Of a stretch of 64,000 nucleotides of DNA, positions 692 to 35,535 are shown in pieces (position 1 is the first letter of the stretch; each line of letters opens with the position of its first letter). Source of the stretch: Flagellimonas flava. Its GTDB lineage: Bacteria; Bacteroidota; Bacteroidia; Flavobacteriales; Flavobacteriaceae. The stretch spans positions 558,001 to 622,000 of the forward strand of contig NZ_FQWL01000001.1 of NCBI RefSeq assembly GCF_900129665.1, in the 5' to 3' direction. A model generated the notes under the pieces. It saw only the letters and a list, made by a program, of their open reading frames with translations, was not told the DNA's origin and did no database searches. The position numbers were made by a program, and so were the translations under genes.

Positions 692-2914
<2,223 letters not shown>

Positions 2915-2938
2915 CTAGGTGTTTTTATTTGAGCGGAG

Positions 2939-2971
2939 CAAATATACAATTTATGGCTGTTGCTATCCCAA
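2939..2971 (-). promoter_or_regulatory. Predicted icd promoter (Bacteroidota minus-33/minus-7)
   Basis: On the minus strand TATATTTG (2946-2939) fits the Bacteroidota minus-7 consensus TAnnTTTG exactly, with TTG at 2971-2969 as a possible minus-33 element and a 22-base spacer. Predicted start near 2935, giving a leader of about 20 bases before the icd ATG at 2914. It lies downstream of the terminator at 3003-3049, so icd is probably transcribed independently. Confidence 0.55.
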
Positions 2972-3002
2972 GCGATTCTGCTAAAAGTGTGATAATATAC
3001 GA

Positions 3003-3049
3003 TGGAAAAAACAAAAGCCATATCTATGTCGAAACATTGATATGGCTTT
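3003..3049 (-). terminator. Rho-independent terminator, minus strand, upstream of icd
   Basis: Perfect 11-bp stem AAAGCCATATC (3014-3024) / GATATGGCTTT (3039-3049) with a 14-base loop. On the minus strand the stem is followed by TTTGTTTTTT (3013-3004). No annotated minus-strand gene ends just before it: the nearest, rplS, stops at 3544 and has its own terminator. It therefore implies a transcript from 3050-3480, or an attenuator ahead of icd. Confidence 0.7.
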
Positions 3050-3480
3050 CTGAAAAGAGCTAAAAGATTTTATTCTGTGTTGCCACAGAATTGCAACCAT
3101 TGATTGCATCCGTTGCTCCTTTGACGTTTACTCAACACTATGCTTTTAATTATACAACTAAACAACATCTTGCAAAGCATCCTAATGGTTTCCTAAATTC
3201 TATCAAAACGAAAAATTGCTCTTCCGCCCGCACATAGAATTTATTATTTCTCTCTGGGTTCTGCCGAAACTTTCCCCGCTTCGAAATTCCTTTTGTGATT
3301 AGTAGTGTTACCAATTTAAAGGGAAACATCAGTATTTAAAGAACGTCAACTTTAAATCCGAAATTCGAAGTTGAATTGCTTCTCCTTCTTATTTCTTCGA
3401 CTAAATTAGGATAAACATCCAGATTTGCAAATTTTGTAAGCGATTAAAAATCAACATAATATGAACCATCGTTATTAACA
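3050..3480 (-). ncRNA. Candidate structured non-coding RNA (unassigned)
   Basis: This gap has no credible ORF. On the minus strand it contains a series of inverted repeats: CTTTAAAT/ATTTAAAG (3357-3334), an alternative TCAACTT/AAGTTGA pairing (3374-3346), a perfect 10-bp ATAGAATTTA/TAAATTCTAT pair (3234-3243 with 3194-3203), ATGCTTT/AAAGCAT (3180-3140), TGCAA/TTGCA (3108-3092), and a perfect 8-bp stem closed by a GCAA (GNRA) tetraloop (3091-3072), directly followed by the terminator at 3049-3003. I see no RNase P, tmRNA or SRP core motif. A weak promoter-like TTG with 16 bases to AAAATTTG lies near 3428-3455. Random AT-rich pairing is the main alternative. Confidence 0.35.
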
Positions 3481-3493
3481 ATTGTTCATAAAA

Positions 3494-3519
3494 AAAGCAC
3501 CCTTTTACAAGGATGCTTT
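3494..3519 (-). terminator. rplS terminator
   Basis: Hairpin AAAGCACCCTT (3494-3504) / AAGGATGCTTT (3509-3519) with a TTAC loop and one mismatch. The minus strand continues into a T run (complement of the A run 3489-3493), about 25 bases after the rplS stop. A T run also follows on the plus strand, so it could act in both directions. Confidence 0.75.
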
Positions 3520-3543
3520 ATTTTTTGCCAAAAGGAGGAGGGA

Positions 3544-3894
3544 TTATCCCCTAACTTCCTTAATTCGTGCTTTCTTACCGGTAAGTTCTCGGAAATAGAA
3601 AATTCTTGATCTACGTACCTTACCTTTTTTGTTCACCTCGACTCTTTGAAGTGCTGGCATATTGACTGGGAAAATTCTTTCCACTCCAACCGTTCCAGAC
3701 ATTTTCCTGATAGTAAAGGTTTCAGTAGCACCTGTTCCTCTTCGTTGGATTACTACACCTTTGAAGAACTGGGTACGCGTTTTTTCACCTTCCTTAATTT
3801 CATAATACACAGTGATGGTGTCACCGGCTGAAAATTTTGGAAATTCTTTTTTAGGAACAAATTCGTCTTCAACAAATTTTATTAAAGATTCCAT
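3544..3894 (-). CDS. rplS: 50S ribosomal protein L19
   Basis: 116 residues, the normal L19 length, with characteristic segments FSAGDTITVYYEIKEGEKTR, GVVIQRRGTGATETFTIRK and VGVERIFPVNMP. L19 sits at the interface of the large and small ribosomal subunits. It is the last gene of a trmD / small membrane protein / rplS group on the minus strand, an arrangement related to the widely conserved trmD-rplS pair, and is closed by a terminator. Confidence 0.97.
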   Translation of the reverse strand: MESLIKFVEDEFVPKKEFPKFSAGDTITVYYEIKEGEKTRTQFFKGVVIQRRGTGATETFTIRKMSGTVGVERIFPVNMPALQRVEVNKKGKVRRSRIFYFRELTGKKARIKEVRG

Positions 3895-4021
3895 GGTCTG
3901 TTTTTTTATGTTTTACAAAACCAACTTTCACGGATTTCGTCAGAGGTTGAATTTGCGATTGCAAAAGTAGTGCAATATTTAGAATTGACAAGGCATTTTT
4001 TGGTTTTTGAAGCTAGTAAGC

Positions 4022-5508: not shown

Positions 5509-5530
5509 AAGCTCCCTAATCAGGGAGCTT
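5509..5530 (-). terminator. Terminator after the coiled-coil membrane protein gene
   Basis: Perfect 9-bp stem AAGCTCCCT (5509-5517) / AGGGAGCTT (5522-5530) with a 4-base loop, beginning 3 bases past the stop at 5534. On the minus strand it is followed by TTAGTTTTCG. It lies 13 bases before the GNAT start at 5495, so the two genes probably have separate transcripts. Confidence 0.7.
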
Positions 5531-11837: not shown

Positions 11838-12482
11838 ATGAAAAGATGGATAGGTTTTTTACTGCATCTTGCCATGATTGTTATTTTAACGAGTTTTGTT
11901 TCGTATACCTCAGATAAGAAGGTGGACATCAAGATTCCGGATTCGTTAAAGGTAGAGAGCAGTTTGGAATTCGTTGTGCTCACAGAGTCAACGAAAATTC
12001 TTGAAAATGACATGGTATCCCCTCCTTTTTTGGGGAACGCTTATAATGGATTCAAAGAGGCTTTGGCCTTCAAGGAATCGCAAGGAAGATATAACGTGAT
12101 AAATACGTTGGGATATATGGGTAAATACCAATTTGGTACAAGTACCCTTAAGCTTATGGGAGTAAATAATACCAATACTTTCTTAAGTGACCCGGTGCTA
12201 CAAGAGAAGGTTTTTGAAACCAATGTGGCGCGCAATAAATGGATTTTACGTAGAGATATCAAACGTTTCAACGGGAAGCGGATAAGAGGTGTGGAGATCA
12301 CCGAATCGGGTATTGTTGCCGCTGCGCATTTGGCAGGAGCCGGAAACGTGAAAAAATATCTACGCTCCTATGGTAAAAACGATGTTGCTGATGCTTATGG
12401 AAGTAGTATATCCTATTACATGCGAAAGTTTGCAGGTTTTGATATTTCCGAAATTGAGCAAAAAAGAAATGCCAAAATATAG
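11838..12482 (+). CDS. Secreted lysozyme-like (transglycosylase-fold) protein
   Basis: 214 residues. An N-terminal signal or anchor (WIGFLLHLAMIVILTSFVSY) is followed by a domain resembling lytic transglycosylases: ALAFKESQGRYNVIN places a candidate catalytic Glu at residue 80, then LGYMGKYQFGTSTLKLMGV (the Y-Q-F-G motif) and GIVAAAHLAGAGNVKKYL. Probably acts on peptidoglycan in the periplasm, in keeping with the mltG operon just upstream. Homologues are often named LysM-type peptidoglycan-binding proteins, but no LysM repeat is visible here. Confidence 0.8.
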   Translation: MKRWIGFLLHLAMIVILTSFVSYTSDKKVDIKIPDSLKVESSLEFVVLTESTKILENDMVSPPFLGNAYNGFKEALAFKESQGRYNVINTLGYMGKYQFGTSTLKLMGVNNTNTFLSDPVLQEKVFETNVARNKWILRRDIKRFNGKRIRGVEITESGIVAAAHLAGAGNVKKYLRSYGKNDVADAYGSSISYYMRKFAGFDISEIEQKRNAKI

Positions 12483-12537: not shown

Positions 12538-13264
12538 ATGCCTGGATAATGAATATTGCCGGACGCTTGTTCAAATCTAGTGCTATTTCTCCCCACTCGT
12601 GCACTATCTTAGTCTGTATGAATTCGGTGGGTAGGGTAATGTCAGCTGCAATGCACAAACGTGTACTTTTTTGAAGGGTACGTTTTAGCTCGGCCAGTAG
12701 CTTATCATTGCGGTACGGGGTTTCCATAAAAATTTGAGATTGCCCTTGTTCGCGCGATAGACGCTCTAAACGTTTTAGGGTGGACTTGCGTTCCGCCTTA
12801 TCAATTGGTAAATAGCCATTGAAGGCAAAATTTTGGCCATTCATGCCGCTGGACATCATCGCCATAAGAATGGATGAAGGACCCACTAAGGGAACCACTT
12901 GTATCCTCCGTTCGTGAGCAACTTTTACCACAGAGGCACCAGGGTCTGCAATTCCGGGGCACCCGGCTTCGGACAAAACCCCGATATTGTGTCCGCTAAG
13001 GCAAGGATCTAAATAGGAGGGAATTACAGTCGGGTCCGTGAACTTGTTCAAGGATTCTATGTGCAGTTCGGGCTGTGATTTGGTCGGGCTAATTTTTTTT
13101 ATGAAATGTCTAGCCGTCTTTTCGTTCTCAACCACGTAGTAGTCAATGTTCTCAATAGCACGCTTTATGGAAATGGGTAGAACCTCCAATGGAGCACTAT
13201 CGCCCAAGGTTGTTGGGATAAGATAAACTTTGCCCATTACAAGGCCAGGTTTGCTTTCTTCCAT
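12536..13264 (-). CDS. Tetrapyrrole methylase-family SAM-dependent methyltransferase, RsmI-like
   Basis: 242 residues of the class III (tetrapyrrole methylase fold) SAM methyltransferases: GKVYLIPTTLGD, then VLSEAGCPGIADPGA and VVPLVGPSSILMAMMSSG, as in RsmI, which 2'-O-methylates C1402 of 16S rRNA. The motif ETPYRNDKLL is also RsmI-like. It is shorter than RsmI at the C-terminus and the early strand departs from the usual LATPIGNL (here LIPTTLGD), so it may be a paralogue with another target. An in-frame ATG at 13237 is an alternative start. It follows the phosphatase gene by 4 bases. Confidence 0.85.
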   Translation of the reverse strand: MEESKPGLVMGKVYLIPTTLGDSAPLEVLPISIKRAIENIDYYVVENEKTARHFIKKISPTKSQPELHIESLNKFTDPTVIPSYLDPCLSGHNIGVLSEAGCPGIADPGASVVKVAHERRIQVVPLVGPSSILMAMMSSGMNGQNFAFNGYLPIDKAERKSTLKRLERLSREQGQSQIFMETPYRNDKLLAELKRTLQKSTRLCIAADITLPTEFIQTKIVHEWGEIALDLNKRPAIFIIQA

Positions 13265-13734: not shown

Positions 13735-15159
13735 TTAAGAGAATTTTTTGTTCAGGTCTTCAATATACTTTCTGAACTGTTTATCGGTTTCCGCCAAGTT
13801 GTCTACGGTCTTGCAGGCATGCAAAACGGTGGCGTGATCCCTTTTCCCGATTTGGGAACCAATACTGGCCAAGGAGGCCTTGGTAAATTTTTTGGCGAAG
13901 AACATGGCCAATTGCCTTGCTTGAACGATATGGCGCTTTCTGGTTTTGGACTGCAGGGTGGCAACATCCATCTCAAAGTAATCCGAGACCACTTTTTGAA
14001 TGTAGTCTATGGATACTTCACGTTTGGTATTCTTAACAAACTTTTCCACGACCTGTTGCGCCAATTCCAAGGTAACCTCCCGTTTGTTGAATGAGGACTG
14101 TGCTATCAGCGAAATAATGGCACCTTCAAGTTCCCGGATATTCGTCTTGATGTTCTTGGCTACGTGGTCTATGATGTCCTCCGGCATTTCCACCCCGTCC
14201 CGGTACAATTTGTTCTTTAATATAGATACCCGGGTTTCGTAATCCGGACTTTGAAGCTCGGCGGATAGACCCCATTTAAAACGTGATAACAACCGCTGTT
14301 CAATATCCTGCATGTCTACCGGTGCCTTGTCCGACGTGAGGATGACCTGCTTCCCATTTTGGTGCAGGTGATTGAAAATATGGAAGAATACGTCCTGGGT
14401 TCCAGATTTACCGGAAAGGAATTGTACATCATCGATAATGAGTACATCAATCAGTTGGTAAAAATGGATAAAATCGTTTCGGGTGTTTTTCTTTACGGAT
14501 TCTATATACTGCTGGGTGAATTTCTCTGCAGAAATGTAAAGTACTGTTTTTTCTGGGTACTTATCCTTGATTTCAACTCCTATGGCATGGGCCAAGTGGG
14601 TCTTTCCCAAACCAACGCCTCCAAAGACCAATAACGGGTTAAAGGACGTTCCTCCAGGTTTGTTCGCCACGGCCATTCCGGCAGACCTTGCCAAGCGATT
14701 CGAGTCTCCCTCCAAAAAATTATCAAAATTGTAGTTTGGATTTAATTGGGACTCAATCTTAATATTTCGGATACCCGGTATAACAAAAGGGTTCTTTAGC
14801 TCGGGACTTTTTGAAGTGATTGGGACATCCAATTCTTGTGGCCCAACAGCAGTTCTGTTAGCACTTGGAATTTGCTCTGTAAAAGGTTCTTTGTTTCCGT
14901 ACTTATTTTCCATCTTAATGATGTAAATAAGCTTGGCATTATTCCCCAATTCTTTGGTCAGGGCAACCTTTAGAAGCTTTACATAATGCTCCTCCAACCA
15001 TTCATAAAAAAACTTGCTGGGCACCTGAATGCTCAGGGCCTTATCGGTCAACTTAATGGGTTTGATGGGTTCAAACCATGTTTTGAATGCCTGCGGTTGG
15101 ATATTATCCTGGATAAAAGCCAAACAGTTGTTCCACACGGAATTTGCAGTAACACTCAT
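13735..15159 (-). CDS. dnaA: Chromosomal replication initiator DnaA
   Basis: 474 residues in the usual four-domain order: N-terminal interaction domain (1-80), a linker, the AAA+ domain with Walker A GGVGLGKT at 180-187 and Walker B DVLIIDD near 238-244, and the C-terminal DNA-binding domain with the signature KRDHATVLHACKTV. It unwinds the origin. In the 204 bases upstream (15160-15363) I see no TTATCCACA-type DnaA box and no dnaN beside it, so this need not be the replication origin. Confidence 0.97.
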   Translation of the reverse strand: MSVTANSVWNNCLAFIQDNIQPQAFKTWFEPIKPIKLTDKALSIQVPSKFFYEWLEEHYVKLLKVALTKELGNNAKLIYIIKMENKYGNKEPFTEQIPSANRTAVGPQELDVPITSKSPELKNPFVIPGIRNIKIESQLNPNYNFDNFLEGDSNRLARSAGMAVANKPGGTSFNPLLVFGGVGLGKTHLAHAIGVEIKDKYPEKTVLYISAEKFTQQYIESVKKNTRNDFIHFYQLIDVLIIDDVQFLSGKSGTQDVFFHIFNHLHQNGKQVILTSDKAPVDMQDIEQRLLSRFKWGLSAELQSPDYETRVSILKNKLYRDGVEMPEDIIDHVAKNIKTNIRELEGAIISLIAQSSFNKREVTLELAQQVVEKFVKNTKREVSIDYIQKVVSDYFEMDVATLQSKTRKRHIVQARQLAMFFAKKFTKASLASIGSQIGKRDHATVLHACKTVDNLAETDKQFRKYIEDLNKKFS

Positions 15160-17836: not shown

Positions 17837-18881
17837 TGTAGTAAAGGGATAAAGTGTCAGCTAGAATAGATTCAGTTTTTGTGGGAGATTCAGAGATTTC
17901 TGGTGCCAAAATACCATCCCCAAAAATGATAGTACCTTTGAAAACCCTCGCTTCATCCCAAAGGTTTTCATAGATAAAGGTTTGTAGTGTTTGTGCACCG
18001 CCTTCAATAATAACACTGGTAATCTGATGTCGGTAAAGTACGGCGCTAATCTGAGCGGCGAGGGGTTGCCCGAAATCTATAATTTCATATGCAATGCCAT
18101 CCCTGTATTTTTTTGTTTCAGCAACAGCCGTTAGCACAATGGTCTGCTCGTCACCATCCAGAACATGAAACTCCTGGGGAGTTTTTAAATCCCGGTCCAA
18201 AACGACCCGGACGGGACTTTTTCCCTCCCAGTTCCTTACGGTCAGTTTGGGGTTGTCGTCCATAACGGTTTGGGTTCCTACCAAGATACCCTGTTCCTCC
18301 GACCGCCATTTGTGAACTAACTGTTTGGAATAGCCATTGGTAATCCAAAAAGGTTGCGGATTTCCCTTTCTTTTTTCAATTGTTGGGGCTATAAATCCAT
18401 CTTGGGTCTCGGCCCATTTGAGAATTATGTATGGTCTTTTTTGTTCTTGGTAGGTTAAAAAACGTTTATGGTGATCACGGCATTCCTTATCCAGTATGCC
18501 AACGGTGACTTCACAACCGGCATCCTTTAACTTTTGAATGCCATTTCCTGCTACTTTATCATGGGGGTCTTGGAGCCCGATAAAGATTTTAGGGATTCCC
18601 GAAGCAATAATAAGATCACTACATGGGGGTGTCTTTCCAAAATGGGAGCAAGGCTCCAGGGTAACATATAAACTGGATTTTTTGAGTAGCTGTTCGTCCT
18701 TAACAGAACGGATGGCATTGACCTCGGCGTGGGGTCCGCCGTAAGGACTTGTGAAACCTTCCCCAATGATCCTGTCTCCGCATACAACAACACATCCAAC
18801 CATGGGATTTGGTGTGGCGGACCCAAGGCCTTTTTTGCCCAATTCGATACACCGCCTCATGTATTTTTCGTGTATATTCAC
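17829..18881 (-). CDS. ribD: Bifunctional riboflavin biosynthesis deaminase/reductase RibD
   Basis: 350 residues. The N-terminal deaminase domain has zinc ligands H51 (GGPHAEVNA, with catalytic E53), C78 (TLEPCSHFG) and C87 (TPPC); the C-terminal reductase domain starts near 150 (RPYIILKWAETQDGF) and includes VIIEGGAQTLQ. It performs the second and third steps from GTP to riboflavin. The start is a GTG at 18881 that keeps the usual HEKYM opening; an ATG at 18860 is the alternative. A minus-7 box ends 5 bases before the GTG. Confidence 0.95.
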   Translation of the reverse strand: MNIHEKYMRRCIELGKKGLGSATPNPMVGCVVVCGDRIIGEGFTSPYGGPHAEVNAIRSVKDEQLLKKSSLYVTLEPCSHFGKTPPCSDLIIASGIPKIFIGLQDPHDKVAGNGIQKLKDAGCEVTVGILDKECRDHHKRFLTYQEQKRPYIILKWAETQDGFIAPTIEKRKGNPQPFWITNGYSKQLVHKWRSEEQGILVGTQTVMDDNPKLTVRNWEGKSPVRVVLDRDLKTPQEFHVLDGDEQTIVLTAVAETKKYRDGIAYEIIDFGQPLAAQISAVLYRHQITSVIIEGGAQTLQTFIYENLWDEARVFKGTIIFGDGILAPEISESPTKTESILADTLSLYYND

Positions 18882-34668: not shown

Positions 34669-35481
34669 ATGGCGTACAATCTTTTAAAAGGTAAAAGGGG
34701 AATCATTTTTGGGGCGTTGGATGAGCATTCCATTGCTTGGAAAACTGCGGAGCGCGTTCATGAAGAGGGCGGCACCTTTGTGTTGACCAATGCTCCTATC
34801 GCAATGCGAATGGGACAAATTAAGGAACTGGCCGCAAAAACCAATTCGGAAATTATTCCTGCAGATGCCACCAATGAGGAGGATTTGCAAAATTTGGTGA
34901 CCCAAGCCATGGAGATTTTGGGAGGAAAACTTGACTTTGTACTTCATTCCATAGGAATGTCTGTCAATGTTCGAAAAGGTCGTGCCTACACCGATGAGAA
35001 ATATGATTTCACTGCCAAAGGTTGGGATGTTTCGGCACTTTCGTTCCACAAGGTGATGCAGACCCTATTTAAAGCGGATGCTATGAACGAATGGGGAAGC
35101 ATTGTGGCCTTGACCTATATGGCAGCGCAGAGGACCTTTCCCGATTACAACGATATGGCGGACAATAAGGCCTATTTGGAGTCCGTAGCGAGAAGTTTCG
35201 GGTACTTCTTTGGTAAGGAGAAAAAGGTACGTGTAAACACCATTTCGCAATCACCTACACCCACCACGGCGGGACAAGGGGTCAAAGGTTTCGACGGATT
35301 TATCAGCTATGCTGAGAAGATGTCTCCATTGGGCAACGCATCTGCCGCGGACTGTGCTGATTATACCGTCAGTCTATTCTCCGACCTCACCAAGAAGGTT
35401 ACCATGCAGAATTTGTTCCACGATGGTGGATTCTCAAATACGGGCGTTAGCCAGGAGGTAATTGATGAATTTACTGAATAA
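34669..35481 (+). CDS. fabI: Enoyl-ACP reductase (NADH) FabI
   Basis: 270 residues of the short-chain dehydrogenase fold. N-terminal GIIFGALDEHSIAWKTAE is the FabI-type cofactor motif; the catalytic pair is Y160 and K167 (Tyr-X6-Lys) in FPDYNDMADNKAYLES, followed by VNTISQSPTPTTAG. It reduces enoyl-ACP in the last step of each fatty-acid elongation cycle. Transcribed alone from its own promoter and closed by a terminator. Confidence 0.96.
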   Translation: MAYNLLKGKRGIIFGALDEHSIAWKTAERVHEEGGTFVLTNAPIAMRMGQIKELAAKTNSEIIPADATNEEDLQNLVTQAMEILGGKLDFVLHSIGMSVNVRKGRAYTDEKYDFTAKGWDVSALSFHKVMQTLFKADAMNEWGSIVALTYMAAQRTFPDYNDMADNKAYLESVARSFGYFFGKEKKVRVNTISQSPTPTTAGQGVKGFDGFISYAEKMSPLGNASAADCADYTVSLFSDLTKKVTMQNLFHDGGFSNTGVSQEVIDEFTE

Positions 35482-35499
35482 CATAATAACTCAATCGCA

Positions 35500-35526
35500 A
35501 AAGCCACCTATTTTGGGTGGTTTTTG
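35500..35526 (+). terminator. fabI terminator
   Basis: Stem CCACC (35504-35508) / GGTGG (35516-35520), extended by AA/TT pairs, followed by TTTTTG. It ends 10 bases before the ATG of the glycosyltransferase, so that gene must be transcribed by readthrough or from a promoter within fabI. Confidence 0.75.
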
Positions 35527-35535
35527 TGTTTCTAT

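Follow-up and report, generated by a model that had tools for sequence, protein, structure and literature searches.

Bacteria possess a number of large, widely conserved and elaborately folded free-standing RNAs whose function is little known, among them raiA/ModT, OLE, GOLLD and ROOL. In flavobacteria, 6S-Flavo (Rfam RF01685) is, like the RNA described here, a free-standing RNA gene, but it comprises 108 positions and is located elsewhere in this genome (C12:179729-179838). The L19-Flavobacteria ribosomal leader (RF03130) is likewise a flavobacterial structured RNA of the rplS locus; it differs in being a 29-nt cis-element before rplS (3949-3922 on the minus strand of the window, the whole 64,000-nt stretch of DNA analysed, whose numbering is used throughout), ~525 nt upstream of the RNA, and has no match in the gap between rplS and icd. 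At 3922-3949 (minus strand) its model scores 40 bits (cut-off 31.5), which makes it the sole Rfam match at gathering score within the window, and the leader was also detected in 18 of 20 scanned loci of the family. Rfp18 of Flavobacterium psychrophilum, as described in passages of PMC9723704, resembles our RNA in being a conserved flavobacterial sRNA with a strong fold; it is widely conserved in the genus Flavobacterium, and the passages of the main text make no mention of rplS, the comparison being one of descriptions alone. Nothing on an rplS-icd RNA was found in the titles, abstracts and passages of PMC9723704 that made up a partial coverage of the literature.

The initial annotation had pointed to an unassigned structured RNA at 3003-3480. 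No Rfam family was found at these positions. None of the 4227 models of Rfam 15 reached its gathering score between rplS and icd, either in the window or in the 20 of 28 family loci scanned, and a relaxed search of 2900-3560 returned sub-gathering matches only, the best of them at the rplS terminator. The 6S models RF00013 and RF01685 gave no match in the region at E-values up to 5, and RF00013 was absent genome-wide. We consider it likely that the minus strand at 3396-3005 is a free-standing non-coding RNA gene of ~390 nt, whose product would contain a loop pseudoknot and act in trans, and whose expression would be controlled through a palindrome. Comparison of the loci establishes, at the level of sequence, that the position, length and structure of the RNA are conserved, that it has its own promoter-like and terminator elements, that none of its reading frames is conserved, and that a palindrome is conserved together with it.

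Locus layout and distribution

On the minus strand rplS (3894-3544) comes first, then the rplS terminator (3519-3494), ~570 nt of further sequence and finally icd (2914-692); Pfam assigns the two products to ribosomal protein L19 and monomeric isocitrate dehydrogenase, respectively. A terminator belonging to rplS and a promoter belonging to icd had both been claimed before, and both assignments hold: the hairpin at 3519-3494 scores terminator-like in a terminator scan, as does the one at 3091-3072, and a promoter box of icd, TATATTTG, is located at 2946-2939, downstream of the terminator of the RNA. The strict pattern TGTAT[AC]TT[TC]GC finds the box before icd in 22 of 27 family loci and in 39 of the 58 loci from the genus; other loci display a CGTATATTTGC variant. 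Two further elements were observed in passing, the Flavo-1 RNA (RF01705), which immediately precedes rplS in two other genomes (L076:2118-2184 and L085:2147-2283, both on the minus strand), and a 9-bp terminator-like hairpin at 5509-5530 of the window, with T-rich tails on both strands and apparently bidirectional.

A DNA search of 99 genomes, 39 of them from other families, returned matches in 59, which correspond to 58 of 60 genomes of the genus, counting the own one, and a short chance match in G071 that sits within a 366-aa frame. No match was obtained in the same-genus genomes G014 (75% complete) and G041 (95% complete). In all 58 same-genus loci the stretch lies between rplS and icd. Full-length identity to the window is ~65-90% in 57 of them, and the segment equivalent to 3400-3004 measures 381-399 nt in 57 and 317 nt in the remaining one (L058), whose middle is deleted; the best conserved parts are the block upstream of the promoter and the 3' end. 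The own genome holds a single match, which speaks against a decayed repeat. Extra short matches in G053, G044 and G047 were considered as paralogues and rejected, being located inside long open frames, presumably integrase-type genes, and not representing copies.

Beyond the genus, BLAST at E 0.01 matched 183 of 299 family genomes and 151 of 236 genera, with places checked for part of the matches, and 39% of the family genomes gave no match. Among the 28 family loci fetched, rplS is present in 24, icd in 27, both in 23 and at least one of them in all. The terminator pattern GCCATRTC-N6-28-GATATGGCTTTT occurs in 210 of 397 family genomes and 137 of 237 genera, again with places checked in part, and its reversed control produced no match among the matches listed; 47% of the family genomes, including the listed genomes of genus g152, lack the exact terminator. 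The exact core pattern is found in 24 of 27 family loci and 47 of 58 genus loci, and true loci are thus partly missed. In a class-wide sample the pattern matched 7 of 395 genomes, namely 6 of the 14 family members and 1 of the 381 non-members. By these searches the RNA is nearly restricted to Flavobacteriaceae.

A stricter terminator pattern detected at least 119 stretches in named genomes, 80 of which are listed. Among these 80 matches listed, rplS lies 431-728 nt upstream in 65, icd lies downstream within 1326 nt in 68 (range 94-1326 nt), and at least one of the two is found in 76; the four loci with neither neighbour (L174, L185, L207 and L230) were left out of the scoring of the H0 core and the palindrome described below. 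The named holders among the matches listed include Flagellimonas, Maribacter, Zobellia, Cellulophaga and Tenacibaculum, and further Algibacter, Gelidibacter, Psychroserpens and Kordia. Also among the matches listed, and with flanks that extend over 1300 and 1900 nt or more, four loci have rplS and no icd (L191, L204, L209, L214) and six have icd and no rplS (L171, L201, L224, L227, L232, L239). In G223, rplS ends at 12406, the 3' domain of the RNA occupies 12929-13063, and icd starts at 18508, 5.4 kb downstream. The genus, family and named sets overlap, the named loci sharing species with the genus set, and are therefore not independent.

A covariance model, R1, was built on the 3' domain (3050-3128). 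Its matches in G624 and G628 (outside the family), in G476 and G521 (genus g152) and a second one in G301 are taken as chance because they are without rplS, icd and the core motif; the tally of 20/296 includes the four genomes G624, G628, G476 and G521. A weak R1 match at 35419-35532 on the plus strand of the window (21.6 bits, E 0.024) is probably also due to chance.

Transcription signals, fold and a probable pseudoknot

Alignment of the genus and family loci reveals a putative promoter on the minus strand at 3431-3401, made up of a -33 TTTG (3431-3428), a 19-nt spacer and a -7 element (3408-3401) that reads TAATTTAG here and TANNTTTG in the consensus. By its sequence, TTTG-N19-TAATTTAG is of the flavobacterial -33/-7 promoter type, to which we presume the TTTG part to belong. 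Passages of PMC9723704 give TAnnTTTG as the sigma-A element of flavobacteria. A loose version of the promoter pattern, scored without a background control, is present in 54 of the 55 loci of the genus, in 26 of the 27 of the family and, among the matches listed, in 63 of 71 named loci. A second upstream block, TGTTGATTTTTAATC (3456-3442), consists of highly conserved genus columns and is seen in the family loci shown. From these elements we infer that transcription would start near 3396 and end near 3005.

The terminator (3049-3005), formed by AAAGCCAUAUC and GAUAUGGCUUU followed by a U-run, had been placed at 3003-3049 by the initial annotation, and is paired in 93.9% of cells among 57 same-genus sequences. 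The letters of its stem are little changed across genera. Eight of 14 pairs are invariant in the 57 sequences of the genus alignment (A1), and 9 of 11 in the 29 sequences of a cross-genus alignment of the 3' domain (A2), a count biased upwards because A2 omits three loci in which letters of this stem have changed (L066, L081, L092); pairing is kept at least in L066 and L092 despite the altered letters. The near-invariance of this stem makes it the oddest part of the RNA, as a different G+C-rich stem would also bring about termination, and some partner probably recognises its letters. The locus thus carries conserved promoter and terminator elements of its own at the sequence level, as befits an independent RNA gene.

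The initial annotation had also described the stretch as free of open reading frames, which is right in substance. Within 3400-3004 there are four complete frames of 20 codons or more, two in sense (36 and 59 aa) and two in antisense orientation (48 and 28 aa), and the four are open, in this order, in only 2, 1, 17 and 15 of 56 relatives, a pattern that offers no sign of a small-protein mRNA among these frames.

The minus strand at 3480-3004 (477 nt) folds better than its shuffled versions (z -5.1, with 0 of 100 as good), and 3400-3050, which excludes the terminator, does so with z -3.8. RNAalifold was applied to A1, which comprises 57 of the 58 genus loci (the 317-nt L058 was left out), and gave 77 consensus pairs with 96.6% of cells paired and double-sided changes at 40 pairs (209 cells). 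In shuffled A1 alignments, a control that ignores relatedness, 20.3 pairs and 57.4 cells showed such changes and none of 500 reached the observed values. When the partners were slid by 1-3 columns, a control that keeps relatedness and favours the structure, which was derived from the same alignment, pairing fell from 96.6% to 40-52%. A single genus supplies most of the support for the 77 pairs, and the middle of the RNA aligns poorly between genera. A2, with a structure written by hand from the sequences, contains 29 of 41 prepared sequences (17 from the genus and 12 from other genera), a further seven without a start having been excluded; it displays double changes at 17 of 30 pairs of the 3' domain, matched by 0 of 500 shuffles, and only 37-52% pairing when slid. 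In other genera a second subtype, marked by UGUUUCAUUGAAAUAG, keeps the promoter, the terminator and mostly hairpin H0. Eight loci of this subtype (L071, L072, L076, L079, L082, L085, L088, L093) were excluded from A2 because their 3' domain differs. Conservation and covariation among relatives thus lend good support to the earlier proposal of an unassigned structured RNA with its own terminator.

The individual elements of the fold are presented from 5' to 3' on the minus strand. The 5' hairpin P0 (3395-3360) forms in all seven sequences folded, own included, with visible changes on both arms; it is outside the RNAalifold consensus and its pairs do not enter the 77-pair count. Hairpin H0 is followed by hairpin P2 (3322-3289), CCUUU..AUUGGUA-ACAC-UACURAU..AAAAGG, which is paired in 99-100% of cells, has a nearly invariant ACAC loop and varies hardly at all in sequence within the genus. 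Hairpin P4 (3243-3194) consists of two 10-bp helices with compensatory changes at 15 of 20 pairs and 97-98% of cells paired, and hairpin P5 (3176-3131) of an outer CUUUGC and an inner UUUAGUU helix with such changes at 6 of 12 pairs. The 3' domain (3128-3050) includes a closing helix, the GCAAUCAAUGGUUGC hairpin and a GNRA-capped hairpin (3091-3072), and displays the cross-genus covariation of A2. The inverted repeats listed by the initial annotation were recovered by a repeat search (3014-3029/3034-3049, 3194-3203/3234-3243 and 3072-3079/3084-3091). Among the 57 same-genus sequences, its perfect 10-bp pair at 3194-3203/3234-3243 is paired in 97.7% of cells and its tetraloop stem at 3072-3091 in 93.6%, the loop being GCAA in 38, GAAA in five and other in 14.

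H0 (3356-3335) pairs UUUAAAG with CUUUAAA around an 8-nt loop, UUGACGUU; 98.2% of its cells are paired within the genus and all pairs are intact in 51 of 57 sequences, so that the hairpin previously reported at ~3334-3357 is confirmed. It lies outside the RNAalifold nesting and is conserved nonetheless. Its core, ACGUUCUUUA, is kept in many family loci and was found in 155 of 177 loci. In the 78 of 125 distinct sequences that are best fitted by an 8-nt loop, the seven pairs hold in 70-78, a generous figure because the core was chosen for the best stem. Across genera the pair types change on both sides, with A-U, U-A, G-C, C-G and G-U exchanges.

The H0 loop (3349-3342) also represents the 5' strand of helix P1, whose 3' strand is AACGUCAA (3128-3121). 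In type I loci this partner precedes the terminator at a near-constant position, a result to be read as generous because the best partner site was picked. Both strands are paired in 98.7% of cells. Compensatory changes are few and affect 2 of 7 pairs in three sequences, from C-G to U-A in L057 and from G-C to A-U in L024 and L026. The H0 loop probably forms a long-range pseudoknot through P1. Pairing of the 8-nt loop with AACGUYRA ~215 nt downstream would close a ring of hairpins P2-P5, after which the 3' domain and then the terminator hairpin would follow. The initial annotation had set the H0 hairpin against a mutually exclusive one. The rival (3373-3368/3352-3347) has 62.6% of its cells paired and is complete in only 4 of the 57 sequences, and as judged from this alignment the alternative hairpins are not a conserved switch.

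The upstream palindrome and DnaA

A 20-bp palindrome, TTATGAACA-AT-TGTTAATAA (3491-3472, minus strand), consists of two head-to-head DnaA-box-like 9-mers and is conserved with the RNA. With up to four mismatches to TTATNAACAATTGTTAATAA, it is found in all 55 genus loci scored (of 58), in 26 of 27 family loci (of 28) and, among the matches listed, in 65 of 71 named loci (of 76). Background sites number 0, 1 and 11 in 99,603, 62,248 and 492,361 positions (12 in ~654,000 in total), the background being the same loci, mostly coding and unmatched in composition. The pattern TTATN[AC]ACA is rare, with five occurrences in the 64-kb window, two of them at the palindrome. The 17-mer GAACAATTGTTAATAAC is matched exactly once in the own genome, at the palindrome itself, and twice more with 1-2 mismatches; because the reversed control also has two, these near matches are at chance number.

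The near match with two mismatches is located between accA and dnaB, as identified by Pfam (G000:C7, ~89470; centre of L127 / L128). Two DnaA-box-like 9-mers 20 bp apart keep their place in this intergenic region in 8 of 11 loci from five genera, and the pattern finds one box only in the other three (L131, L135, L137). The boxes upstream of dnaB interchange between TGTTGATAAC, TGTTAATAAC, TGTTTATAAC, TGTTCATAAC and TGTGGATAAC, the last of which we take to be the E. coli DnaA box. On the basis of these boxes dnaB, which encodes the replicative helicase, may be under DnaA control. In the window, Pfam places dnaA itself at 13735-15159 (minus strand), ~11 kb from the RNA. The block from dnaA to rplS-RNA-icd is kept in G005 and G299, whose contigs start at dnaA and have the upstream block of the RNA at 11.4 kb.

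The conserved palindrome suggests control by DnaA or by a dimeric regulator, and judged from the sequences the odds between DnaA and another dimeric regulator are about even. Synthesis of the RNA would be set by the palindrome binder, most plausibly DnaA, because like boxes occur at conserved positions upstream of dnaB; the near match plays no part in this preference. A wider proposal is that a DnaA-controlled, pseudoknotted, family-wide trans RNA of ~390-530 nt would report the state of DnaA or of replication to the ribosome or RNA polymerase through the GCCAUAUC terminator hairpin, which we hold to be unlikely. We know of no replication initiator linked to a large structured RNA in any bacterium. 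The upstream box pair allows DnaA control of an RNA gene to be asked cheaply in this phylum.

Alternative readings and known RNAs

The initial annotation had offered two uses for the RNA, a trans-acting sRNA and an attenuation leader of icd. In the latter, a cis-acting element would respond to a signal by forming the terminator (3049-3014) or not, and it is consistent with a terminator standing in front of icd, with icd following within 1326 nt in 68 of the 80 matches listed, and with an alternative hairpin that is present in the own sequence. Several observations tell against it: a promoter box of icd follows the terminator, the distance to icd varies and in some genomes icd is not adjacent to the RNA (G223 and the four rplS-only loci above), and the alternative hairpin is unconserved. 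No conserved anti-terminator was found. A leader is for these reasons highly improbable, and of the two uses the first fits, in the form of an independent RNA gene with its own conserved signals. The position of rplS 431-728 nt upstream in 65 of the 80 matches listed could instead reflect a 3'UTR-type RNA processed out of the rplS transcript; this is very unlikely in view of the terminator of rplS, the promoter-like elements of the RNA, and the six listed named loci in which the RNA precedes icd with no rplS within the flank. A trans-acting RNA might, by contrast with both, work by base pairing, with UUCUUUA, ACAC and the terminator arm GCCAUAUC as segments that would pair with mRNAs, the last being complementary to ..AUAUGGC.. 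around start codons. These segments are conserved in sequence beyond the needs of pairing, and Rfp18 of F. psychrophilum illustrates, in passages of PMC9723704, that flavobacterial sRNAs act on mRNAs; the RNA is, on the other hand, longer than the independent transcripts reported there (median 176 bp), and we regard base pairing as possible but doubtful.

An element acting as DNA, such as a replication origin, was considered on account of dnaA 11 kb away, the DnaA-box-like 9-mers in the conserved block, and genomes that start at dnaA (L100, L101). It was rejected as an origin at the RNA locus on the GC skew of the complete same-genus genome G005, which becomes positive near 1.4 Mb and negative again at ~2.7-3.5 Mb, the element being at 0.011 Mb; this skew is coarse (sampled in the first 20 kb and in 20 further stretches of that size), and the 0.1 Mb stretch is slightly positive. 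Compensatory changes of the RNA type also argue against a DNA element, and its probability is remote. In the same genome (L100, L105-L124) the skew switch near 1.4 Mb is far from dnaA at 0.1 kb, and the dnaB/accA site, at 2.455 Mb, was rejected as an origin as well, not being at the skew switch. Chance pairing in an AT-rich stretch, the main caution of the initial annotation, or a decayed repeat, finds some footing in the composition of the region. The compensatory changes make it very unlikely; with the shuffle and slide controls of A1 and A2 and the single match in the own genome all against it, we consider its probability negligible. We therefore return to the free-standing gene as the preferred reading, in which the RNA would act in trans as a stable, protein- or ribosome-bound molecule rather than as a leader.

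The annotation of the rplS-icd gap would be corrected accordingly, from a leader to a gene. More than half of the genera sampled from a major marine family would possess a large RNA gene that is widely conserved and belongs to no catalogued family, and such conservation is expected of an RNA with a basic role. In length the RNA is similar to tmRNA (RF00023) and RNase P RNA (RF00010), both of which contain pseudoknots; these are located at C6:50705 and C10:98842, respectively, and neither matched at the rplS-icd gap. With raiA/ModT, OLE, GOLLD and ROOL, whose Rfam models have no match at the gap, it shares its conservation, its fold and its free-standing nature. The RNA is a new class within a known general kind, the large structured bacterial non-coding RNAs, and not a new category.
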